Shown piece after piece: positions 21,667 through 25,213 of a DNA stretch of 35,186 nucleotides; position 1 is the stretch's first letter; every line of letters begins with the position of its first letter. Origin of the DNA: Acidimicrobiia bacterium (GTDB taxonomy: Bacteria; Actinomycetota; Acidimicrobiia; Spongiisociales; UBA5794); NCBI GenBank assembly GCA_030066755.1, contig JASJAX010000031.1, forward strand, positions 1-35,186. The letters run 5' to 3'. The notes under the pieces were generated by a model. That model was not told the origin of the DNA, did no database searches, and saw nothing but the letters and a program-made list of their open reading frames with translations. The translations under genes and the position numbers were made by a program.

Positions 21667-22566
21667 TCACTCGGTAGGCGTGAAGCCGGCCGGCACGCCG
21701 TTGCTCTCCGTATCGCTGGTCGGTCGATCCAGCTGAGCGGCCCTTTGCCGAGCCCGATCGACCGCGGCCCGCACCCCGAGCACGACGAAAAAGAGCACAA
21801 TCGGCATGATTGCCATGGTCGCCGAGCCGGATATGTCGGCATGGAAGCTCACAACGAGTCCGGCGGCGACGGAGAACACGCCGATCAAGGTCGCGGTGGC
21901 CATGATGGTCGGGAGTCGTCTCGCCAGCAGCGCCGCAGTTGCCGGCGGCCCGACGAGCAAGCCGAACACGAGCAGCGTTCCCACCGTTTGGAACGAGGCG
22001 ACGATCGTCAAGGTCATGAGACTGAGCATCAGGGCGTGGGTCAGCTTGGGTCGGAAGCCGAGCAGTTGTGCCTTCTGTTCGTTGAAGGACAGCGCCAGGA
22101 AGGGGCGGTAGAAGACGATGGTCGCGACGAGCGCGATAGCTGCGACTGCGGCAAGGACTCGGATGTCCCCGGCCGTCACGCCCAGGGCGTCCCCGAACAG
22201 AATCCCCGTCAGGCTGCCTTGATAGGAGTCGGTGCGCGAGATCAGGATGACCCCGAGCGCAAGCATGCCCACAAAGAGCAGGCCGATCGAGGTGTCCTCC
22301 GAAAAGGTCGTCTGCCTCCGTACGAGGTTGATGCCGCCGATCATGACGGCAGCGGCAAGCGCGGCGCCGAGCATCGTGTTGAAGTCCAGGAGGACCGCGA
22401 GCGCAATGCCCGGGATGACGCCGTGCACCAGAGCGTCGCCGAGGAAGCTCATACCGCGCACCACGACCCACGTCCCGACGAGTGACAGTCCAACGGATGC
22501 CAGTGCGCCGCCGAACAGCGCTCGTTGCTGAAACGCCAGGTCGAAGGGCTCGATCAACCAGTCCAT
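21667..22566 (-). CDS. aztB: Metal ABC transporter permease (AztB/ZnuB-like)
   Basis: This 299-residue permease has eight or nine membrane helices in the ABC-3 family pattern: MSFLGDALVHGVIPGIALAVLL holds the GDALxHGVxPG motif, and SFQTVGTLLVFGLLVGPPATAALL the (S)xxxxGxxLVxxLLxxPAxxA motif. It should move zinc or manganese across the membrane with the ATPase at 24449 and the binding protein at 22728. The closest kind appears to be the actinobacterial AztB. The ATG at 22566 has TAGTCT nine bases upstream, so it likely has its own promoter rather than reading through from the binding-protein gene. The long C-terminal tail is polar. Confidence 0.82.
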   Translation of the reverse strand: MDWLIEPFDLAFQQRALFGGALASVGLSLVGTWVVVRGMSFLGDALVHGVIPGIALAVLLDFNTMLGAALAAAVMIGGINLVRRQTTFSEDTSIGLLFVGMLALGVILISRTDSYQGSLTGILFGDALGVTAGDIRVLAAVAAIALVATIVFYRPFLALSFNEQKAQLLGFRPKLTHALMLSLMTLTIVASFQTVGTLLVFGLLVGPPATAALLARRLPTIMATATLIGVFSVAAGLVVSFHADISGSATMAIMPIVLFFVVLGVRAAVDRARQRAAQLDRPTSDTESNGVPAGFTPTE

Positions 22567-22727: not shown

Positions 22728-23918
22728 TCACGAAAGGGCGTCGGTGATTCGCGACGCGTTCGTGCGTACGTAATCGAGATACGTCTCACCGCCAGAGCCA
22801 GCTGCGCCGAGTGATCCGGTGAACAGCTCGACGACGGTGACGCCTTCAACCTCGTCGGCCAGTGCCTCAGCGAGCGCCGCCGGCTCGGTGGACTCCGTGA
22901 AGATCACGTTGATGTCCTCATCGACCAGCACATCAACGAGTTCGGCGAGTTCTGCTGAGCTCGGGTCGGCGAGGGTCGAGCCGCCCGGGATGACGGTGCC
23001 GACAACCTCGAAGCCGTACCGCTCGGCGAAGTAGCCAAATGCGTCGTGGTTGGTGACGAGCTTCCGTCGATCCTCGGGCACCGCGGCCAGCATCGACACA
23101 ACTTCGGCATCCACTGCCCTGAGCTCGTCGGCGTAGGCCGTTGCATTGGCCATCCAGTCGACCGACGAGTCGAGATTGGCGAGTTCCCTGGCGATCAGCT
23201 CAACCGCATCGGCGACACGCAAGGGATCCATCCACACGTGCGGATCCTCATCGCCGTGATCGTGGCCGTCGTGGCCTTCTTCGTCGCCATGGTCGTCGTC
23301 CTCGTCCTTGTGGCCCTCTTCGTCGCCGTGGTCGTGGCCTTCTTCGTCGCCGTGGTCGTGGCCTTCTTCGTCGCCGTGGTCGTGGCCTTCTTCGTCGCCG
23401 TGGTCGCCGTCCTCGTCGTGGTCGTCGTGGTCGTGACCACCCTCACCGAACTCGATGGGATCGAGCATGTCGGCGAGTTCGAGGATATTGGCCCCATCAG
23501 CCTCGAGGCCCTCGATGACGTCGAGCAGTCCCTCTTCCAAGGCCAGGCCATTCACAACCACCAGGTCGGCTTCCTGCATCATTGCCGCCTGAGCCGCAGA
23601 CAGCTGGTAGTCGTGGGGATCGGCTCCGATCGGAAGCAGAACCTCGACGGCAGCATTGCCCCCCGTCACGTTCGAGACGATGTCCCCCCAGATGGTCGTC
23701 GTTACGACAACGGACAGTTGCTCGCCATCAGATTGCGACGCCCCGTTATCAGATTGCGTCGCCCCGTTATCGGATTGCGACGCCGCGCCATCTGATTGCG
23801 CCGCTGCGCCACCGGAGGCTTGAGTGGAGTCTGCGCCGTCTGCGTCGGAGCTGTCGCCACACGCGGCAATGACCATGGTCATCACCGTGAGCAGTGCGAG
23901 GAGTTTCAGCCGGTTCAT
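22728..23918 (-). CDS. aztC: Zinc/manganese ABC transporter substrate-binding lipoprotein (AztC/ZnuA-like)
   Basis: This 396-residue cluster A-I metal-binding protein is exported as a lipoprotein (LLALLTVMTMVIAAC lipobox). Metal ligands expected for the family are visible: His in GADPHDYQLSA, His in EDPHVWMDP, His in TNHDAFGYFAERYG, and an acidic residue in the FTESTEP strand. A His/Asp/Glu-rich loop with four near-exact HDHGDEEG units (encoded near 23269-23410) precedes DPHVW and is typical of zinc-binding members. A low-complexity linker of four seven-residue units follows the lipobox. I chose ATG 23918 (GAGAG upstream); ATG 23930 is possible. It is divergent from zur, with Zur-like boxes between them. 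Confidence 0.87.
   Translation of the reverse strand: MNRLKLLALLTVMTMVIAACGDSSDADGADSTQASGGAAAQSDGAASQSDNGATQSDNGASQSDGEQLSVVVTTTIWGDIVSNVTGGNAAVEVLLPIGADPHDYQLSAAQAAMMQEADLVVVNGLALEEGLLDVIEGLEADGANILELADMLDPIEFGEGGHDHDDHDEDGDHGDEEGHDHGDEEGHDHGDEEGHDHGDEEGHKDEDDDHGDEEGHDGHDHGDEDPHVWMDPLRVADAVELIARELANLDSSVDWMANATAYADELRAVDAEVVSMLAAVPEDRRKLVTNHDAFGYFAERYGFEVVGTVIPGGSTLADPSSAELAELVDVLVDEDINVIFTESTEPAALAEALADEVEGVTVVELFTGSLGAAGSGGETYLDYVRTNASRITDALS
23269..23410 (+). repeat. 24-base tandem repeat encoding HDHGDEEG units
   Basis: About four 24-base units (core CTTCGTCGCCGTGGTCGTGG on the plus strand) plus diverged partial units lie inside the binding-protein gene. The minus-strand translation is HDHGDEEG repeated, a His/acid-rich loop known to bind zinc in this family. 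Near-identical units suggest recent expansion by slippage. Confidence 0.8.
23727..23810 (-). repeat. 21-base tandem repeat encoding a QSDNGA-type linker
   Basis: Four head-to-tail 21-base units (ATCAGATTGCGACGCCCCGT at the first) lie in the binding-protein gene just after the lipobox region. On the minus strand they encode (QSDNGAS/T)-like seven-residue units. They probably form a flexible linker between the membrane anchor and the binding domain. Confidence 0.75.
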
Positions 23919-23940
23919 GGATGCTCTCATTTCTTTGCCT

Positions 23941-24000
23941 ATAATGAGAATTGATCTCGGATTGCCCGCCGACGATACTCGAATGAGAATCATTAGCAAA
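23941..24000. promoter_or_regulatory. Divergent aztC-zur control region with two Zur-box-like sites
   Basis: Two AATGAGAAT sites lie between the divergent genes. Site 1 (about 23943-23959) reads AATGAGAATTGATCTCG with a perfect GAGA-N5-TCTC core. Site 2 (about 23982-23998) reads AATGAGAATCATTAGCA, matching the TGANAAT-N-ATT 7-1-7 pattern of actinobacterial Zur boxes at five of seven symmetric pairs. On the plus strand TTGATC (23951-23956), 17 bases, GATACT (23974-23979) form a promoter for zur, with site 1 at the -35 and site 2 over the start of transcription. Confidence 0.72.
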
Positions 24001-24011
24001 AGGAGCTCACC

Positions 24012-24452
24012 ATCACTGCGCCCACCCTCGATCGTCAGGTCGAACGCCGGCTCGCCGAAGCCGACATCCGATACACCAAGGGTCGTCGCGTGGTCATCGG
24101 TGCTCTCGCGGAAGCCGATGGCCCGCGTTCAGCCGCCGAGTTGAGTCGGGCGATTGGCGAGTCGGTGCCACTCTCGTCGTTGTACCGGTCCTTGGCCGTC
24201 CTGGAGGAGGTTGGTGTGCTCGCTCCGCACTACTCGTCACCCGGACTCACGCGCTATGAGCTCGCCGAATGGCTGAGCGGACACCACCATCACCTGGTGT
24301 GCATCGGGTGTGGCCGCGTTCAGGATCTCGAAGCGGACGATGCCATCGAGCGCCGCCTTCAGGAGATCGTGGCCGATGTCGCCCGGGCCGCATCGTTTGC
24401 CGAGTTGAACCACGCGCTCGAGATCGAGGGCCATTGCGCCCGGTGCGCATGA
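24012..24452 (+). CDS. zur: Fur-family zinc uptake regulator (Zur) with an apparent ATC start codon
   Basis: This 146-residue Fur-family repressor has the winged helix (ERRLAEADIRYTKGRRVVIGALAEADGPRSAAELSRAI) and dimer domain, with HHHHLVCIGCGRVQDLE (His91-94, Cys97, Cys100) and a C-terminal CARCA (Cys142, Cys145) as the structural-zinc cysteines. With zinc bound it should repress uptake genes. No ATG, GTG or TTG precedes GTG 24090 in frame (TAG at 23994 closes the frame). Starting at GTG would remove 26 residues of the first DNA-binding helix. AAAAGGAG ends six bases before ATC 24012, where family homology begins. It overlaps the ATPase gene (ATGA). Confidence 0.8.
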   Translation: MTAPTLDRQVERRLAEADIRYTKGRRVVIGALAEADGPRSAAELSRAIGESVPLSSLYRSLAVLEEVGVLAPHYSSPGLTRYELAEWLSGHHHHLVCIGCGRVQDLEADDAIERRLQEIVADVARAASFAELNHALEIEGHCARCA

Positions 24453-25213
24453 GCGATGCCGTTGTCATAGCGACCGATGTCGTGCTCGGCTACGGGGCAC
24501 ACATCGCCGTGGACCGGTCGAGCTTCACGATCCCGAGGCCGGGCATCACTGCGGTCATCGGCCCCAACGGCTCGGGCAAGTCGACGATCCTCAACGCGAT
24601 CGCCGGCCTCCTCGCCCCCTTGTCGGGCACGGTCGAAGTGTCGGGTGGCCGGACCGGCCGAGACGGCATCTCCTACGTTCTCCAAACCACGAAGGTCACC
24701 GACAACGTGCCGGTGACGGTGGAGGAGGTCGTGACGATGGGTCGCTACGCCACGGCGGGCTGGTTTTCCCGCCTGACCGGCAAGGATCGGGGCCGTATCC
24801 GCTCCGCGCTGGACCGCACGGGCGCTACTGAGTTCCGTCGTCGCCACCTGGACGAGTTGTCGGGTGGCCAGCGCCAGAGAGCTTTCCTCGCTCAAGGCCT
24901 TGCGCAGGATCACGGCATCCTCTTGCTCGATGAGCCGCTCTCGGGAATCGACCTCCCAACGGCTCGTGCGATCGACCAGGTGATCCACAACGAGGTCAAA
25001 GACGGTTGCGCCGTCGTCGTGACCACCCACGACTTGACCGAGGCGCAGGTTGCCGATCACGTGATTCTCGTCAATGGCGTCGTGATCGCATCTGGGACGC
25101 CAGACCAGGTGATCACCCCAGAGAACCTCTCCAGGGCCTACGGCGGAGCCGTGCTCCACCCGGACCAAGGTATTCCTGTCATCGACGATCCGGCCCACGC
25201 GGGTCAGGACTGA
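24449..25213 (+). CDS. aztA: Metal ABC transporter ATP-binding protein (AztA/ZnuC-like)
   Basis: This 254-residue ABC ATPase has Walker A GPNGSGKST (38-46), signature LSGGQ (137-141), Walker B ILLLDEP (157-163) and the switch His in TTHDL. It should power the zinc/manganese importer with the permease at 21667 and the binding protein at 22728. It starts with ATG overlapping the zur stop (ATGA), so Zur and the ATPase are made from one message. This separates the ATPase from its own permease by the binding-protein gene and a divergent promoter, an unusual order for this transporter type. Confidence 0.87.
   Translation: MSDAVVIATDVVLGYGAHIAVDRSSFTIPRPGITAVIGPNGSGKSTILNAIAGLLAPLSGTVEVSGGRTGRDGISYVLQTTKVTDNVPVTVEEVVTMGRYATAGWFSRLTGKDRGRIRSALDRTGATEFRRRHLDELSGGQRQRAFLAQGLAQDHGILLLDEPLSGIDLPTARAIDQVIHNEVKDGCAVVVTTHDLTEAQVADHVILVNGVVIASGTPDQVITPENLSRAYGGAVLHPDQGIPVIDDPAHAGQD

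Follow-up and report, generated by a model that had tools for sequence, protein, structure and literature searches.

Which codon starts translation of zur, the gene of a zinc uptake repressor, in an Acidimicrobiia genome in which no ordinary start codon precedes the full DNA-binding domain? The locus lies in a window of 35,186 nucleotides, i.e. the whole stretch of DNA that was analysed, with the following genes and sites:

21667–22566, minus strand: znuB, membrane permease (PF00950 ABC-3, 4e-60)
22728–23930, minus strand: znuA, divergent gene of a zinc-binding protein with a His/Asp-rich loop (PF01297 ZnuA, 1.1e-70); ATG at 23930 or 23918
23945–23959, plus strand: predicted Zur-box-like site TGAGAATTGATCTCG, a match to TGAGAATNNNTNTCA
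23984–23998, plus strand: second predicted Zur-box-like site TGAGAATCATTAGCA, touching the Shine-Dalgarno sequence of zur
23994–23996, plus strand: in-frame TAG that closes the zur frame upstream
23998–24005, plus strand: Shine-Dalgarno (SD) sequence AAAAGGAG, separated from ATC by the 6-nt spacer CTCACC
24012–24014, plus strand: ATC, putative start codon of zur, aligned with ATG, TTG and GTG starts of orthologs
24012–24452, plus strand: zur, Fur-family zinc uptake repressor, 146 amino acids plus stop (24450–24452)
24090–24092, plus strand: GTG, first in-frame canonical codon of zur, which falls in the DNA-binding domain, within its helix 2
24449–25213, plus strand: znuC, ABC ATPase (ABC_tran, 1.6e-25)

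The name zur is well supported by the Fur domain, the znu neighbours and the two predicted boxes. The domain search assigned residues 17–122 to PF01475 (FUR; 1.8e-17, 64 bits against a cut-off of 23.1), and the product matched FurB/Zur of M. tuberculosis (2o03, 2.9e-12). The residues of the zinc sites, i.e. the HHHH motif H91–H94 and the CxxC pairs C97/C100 and C142/C145, were invariant in 17 sequences. The gene is flanked by znuA and znuC, and znuA, znuB and znuC are all adjacent. The ATG of znuC overlaps the zur stop (ATGA), an overlap that is kept in relatives, and znuC itself lacks a clear SD. Nothing else in the whole window matched TGAGAATNNNTNTCA as well as the sites TGAGAATTGATCTCG and TGAGAATCATTAGCA, and both lie between zur and znuA. 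Zur-box-like sites also occurred upstream of most zur orthologs. A counterpart of the second box precedes zur in two relatives (L003 and L033), and a degenerate form in a third (L032). A simple scan found no sigma-70-like promoter.

The first-pass annotation had noted that the TAG at 23994 closes the frame and that no ATG, GTG or TTG occurs before the GTG at 24090. This is borne out by the sequence, and CTG is likewise absent from the codons between the two. The ATC lies 26 codons before this GTG. Its SD would form an anti-SD duplex of -8.5 kcal/mol, which ranks 15 among 124 orthologs, and folding of the RNA revealed no unusual structure in the start region (z = -0.35). It had also been claimed that Fur-type sequence extends 26 residues upstream of the GTG, and in agreement with this, L14, R20, T22 and R25 in this stretch were identical throughout an alignment of 17 relatives. 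In the AlphaFold model, helix 1 spans residues 4–16 and helix 2 residues 23–34, so that the first 26 residues cover helix 1 and reach into helix 2 as far as its first turn; the pLDDT was about 75 at residues 1–10 and 96 at residues 11–30. Nucleotide differences between the window and its closest relative in codons 2–26 numbered 4, 1 and 10 at codon positions 1, 2 and 3, respectively. As most of these changes fall on the third position, the stretch appears to be under protein-level constraint. Judging from the alignment and the predicted structure, the start of zur must precede the GTG at 24090.

The closest relative of this zur gene, 83% identical, comes from a separate Acidimicrobiia metagenome-assembled genome (JASJAS010000004.1; L032/L186), referred to below as the sister. 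It has the same SD, CAAAAGGAG, and carries ATG at the position of the ATC codon. The next closest gene (L033) has GAAAGGAG followed by TTG in the same alignment column, and TTG also occurs there in L003. In many orthologs at a greater distance, this very column holds ATG or GTG. Since the sister with the same SD has ATG and the next closest relative TTG, this comparison indicates that the start position of zur is right, and that only the codon differs from its relatives. The earlier assignment of the start to ATC, with six-base SD spacing, is thus confirmed, with ATG, GTG or TTG at this codon in the orthologs. The window represents one metagenome-assembled genome, and ATC is absent in the sister; within its immediate lineage the codon is thus not conserved. 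Between SD and start, the spacer measures 6 nt in the window versus 4 nt in the sister, a 2-nt length change that adjoins the changed codon.

We read the zur starts of 124 orthologs from the same order and class. Start codons were ATG in 78, GTG in 36, TTG in six and ATC in four genes. The other three ATC genes belong to two species of genus g43 (L232 and L236) and to genus g45 (L221); both genera are from the same order as the window organism, and from another family. In the two g43 genes the ATC follows an SD, and the next canonical codon comes 59–60 residues on, past most of the DNA-binding domain. Hence, no other start could give these proteins a DNA-binding domain. The ATC of L221 likewise follows a good SD, with no canonical codon that could take its place, and an alignment can pair its ATC GCA with the ATG GCA of L208 from the same genus. 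The maximum-likelihood tree of zur contained three changes to ATC, all three forced by well supported branches. By this comparison, at least two further lineages of the order gained ATC in zur independently. The median SD strength differed with the start codon, from -3.6 kcal/mol for ATG to -5.3 for GTG, -7.75 for TTG and -7.9 for ATC. The difference between ATC and ATG genes had p = 0.004, for only four ATC genes of which two share ancestry, and uncorrected for kinship. Within the zur family, weaker start codons seem to be offset by stronger SDs.

At the aligned position, the two zur genes of genus g32 (L021 and L204) read CAT GCG CCA ATC TCC, with no good canonical start nearby, and they were left out of the ATC count. 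Their only nearby in-frame ATG lies inside the Zur box, 12 codons upstream, with no clear SD. Their genus-mate L202 has a normal zur ATG.

The gene infC, whose start codon has long been known to be discriminated against by IF3, starts with ACAGGAGGTCCGCTC-ATC in this genome. Across the order, infC started with ATC or ATT at all 32 loci with a recognised N-terminus, ATT being used in three (L059, L070 and L076); the count covers L051–L085, which include one genome twice and three loci whose N-terminus was not recognised. Gene finders would misplace these infC starts. Because all relatives read have ATC or ATT in infC, the comparison indicates that initiation at AUC, given a strong SD, is a regular feature of this order. 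In contrast, the control genes had canonical starts throughout, at 49 of 49 loci for znuC and 50 of 50 for nrdR, the latter including all four genomes with an ATC zur. Hence, annotation noise does not produce the ATC cases.

We also compared parts of the genome of the window (about 810 kb) with parts of that of the sister (920 kb), which yielded 231 non-overlapping matches with upstream sequence. A canonical codon was in reach in 209 matches and in none of the other 22. Among these 22, zur was the only one with a full-length, right-frame alignment that reached the start of the other gene, while the remaining 21 were wrong-frame or partial as judged by eye. In the compared parts of the genomes, other non-canonical starts thus seem to be rare, by a test that is permissive. 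Moreover, zur looks enriched for ATC, with three origins among 124 genes versus none among about 300 control genes, although these numbers are small. In a search for further copies of the species, an exact pattern gave no match in viral contigs.

The most convincing explanation, which we consider quite likely, is that zur is genuinely translated from a weak AUC start at 24012, which would lower the amount of Zur and probably make it sensitive to IF3. The first-pass annotation had weighed low-level synthesis from ATC against a single-base error, and the comparison supports the former with regard to the start codon and makes the latter unlikely. If the base at 24014 were in truth a G, zur would start with an ordinary ATG; the source is indeed a metagenome-assembled genome in 211 contigs, and in the sister the same context holds an ATG. 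However, substitution errors occur at roughly 1e-5 to 1e-4 per base, and ATC zur genes were found in three further assemblies from two other genera. Even with the window excluded, ATC arose at least twice in about 120 zur genes, far above this error rate, and the codon is the same in every case, although ATG has seven non-canonical neighbours. Given three ATC changes on a supported tree, we regard an error in sequencing or assembly as quite improbable. Still less credible, with hardly any chance of being correct, is a start elsewhere. The GTG at 24090 is the first codon acceptable to gene finders, but a start there would cut away helix 1, part of helix 2 and the invariant residues L14, R20, T22 and R25, and the equivalent canonical codon in L232 and L236 would leave hardly any of the DNA-binding domain. 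A near-cognate codon further upstream, such as the AAG at 24000, would sit within the SD.

Slightly less improbable than an error, yet still unlikely, is a real and recent mutation that damaged the start, leaving zur as a hypomorph or in the course of being lost, and AUC under little selection if any. Conservation of ATC across relatives had been proposed as support for its real use; this did not hold for the nearest relatives, which have ATG and TTG, whereas ATC recurs independently elsewhere. That the codon change is limited to this lineage would suit a damaged start. Against it, neither the rest of zur nor its SD or predicted operators show any damage, and the frame is uninterrupted. Furthermore, the two g43 species are diverged and share ATC, which points to stable maintenance there, with a functional-looking protein.

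If zur is translated from AUC, the strong SD would let the initiator tRNA start there at a low rate, despite the third-base mismatch. Because IF3 discriminates against such codons, synthesis of Zur would probably be low and IF3-sensitive. By analogy with infC and sigR, it is plausible that the AUC start lowers or autoregulates Zur. Less Zur would make the importer genes, znuA-znuB and zur-znuC, easier to derepress, an effect that would add to Zur binding at the two putative boxes between zur and znuA. The weak start could also starve cells of ZnuC, which argues against a simple benefit: znuC may share the low translation of zur because it overlaps the zur stop without a clear SD.

Several known systems resemble zur in part. 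In infC, AUC likewise follows a strong SD, in this genome too. In that gene, however, IF3 controls its own synthesis, whereas zur encodes a metal regulator and has ATC in only 4 of 124 orthologs. The sigR gene of Streptomyces starts with GTC and is repressed by IF3 (PMC5472188). Like zur, it encodes an actinobacterial transcription regulator, and has a non-canonical codon ending in C, a strong SD and an ATGA overlap with the next gene. It differs in using GUC rather than AUC, and in that its codon is conserved through Streptomyces while that of zur is scattered; the effect of IF3 has been demonstrated for sigR and would apply to zur by analogy. In sigR-rsrA, where the genes also overlap by ATGA, the downstream gene is served by a promoter and a ribosome-binding site of its own. 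An AUU start has been shown experimentally for pncA of Borrelia burgdorferi (PMC13398362), where, as for zur, databases would place the start 24–26 residues late and lose an essential N-terminus; pncA encodes an enzyme rather than a regulator, and uses AUU instead of AUC, at a start that was established by experiment. In E. coli lacI, with its GTG start, a weaker start of the repressor gene leads to higher basal expression of the operon it represses (PMC11445065). Both genes have a weaker start codon in a repressor, with the effect shown for lacI and expected for zur, although GTG is broadly canonical and far stronger than AUC.

Within the literature that was searched, there was no report of a non-AUG start for zur, nor of zur using AUC. 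With its AUC start, zur would join a known but small class of genes with non-AUG starts, possibly as a new regulatory theme. To our knowledge, AUC or AUU starts occur in very few genes besides infC, none of which gene finders place correctly. That ATC recurs independently in zur suggests that the strength of the start codon serves cells as a means of setting how much of the regulator they make. As a repressor gene has gained the same rare codon three times, selection of start-codon strength as a dial for regulator dosage becomes testable. A cheap route to more cases would be to look for orthologs with a conserved N-terminus before every canonical start and after an SD. More tentatively, the repeated recruitment of AUC in Acidimicrobiia zur might be adaptive, as a form of control linked to IF3 by which zinc uptake is coupled to the condition of the translation machinery, a link that would be meaningful because ribosomal proteins can be zinc-dependent. 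It is just as speculative that zur would then be the second class of regulators, after sigR, to be regulated via starts outside ATG, GTG and TTG.

The neighbouring znuA gene contains two repeats. A tandem repeat at 23267–23434 (24-nt unit, four copies, 98% match) encodes a loop rich in His, Asp and Glu, which is what one would expect of a ZnuA that binds zinc. A 21-nt repeat of about four copies at 23723–23811, near the N-terminus, encodes a Gln-Ser-Asp-rich linker after a putative lipoprotein signal.
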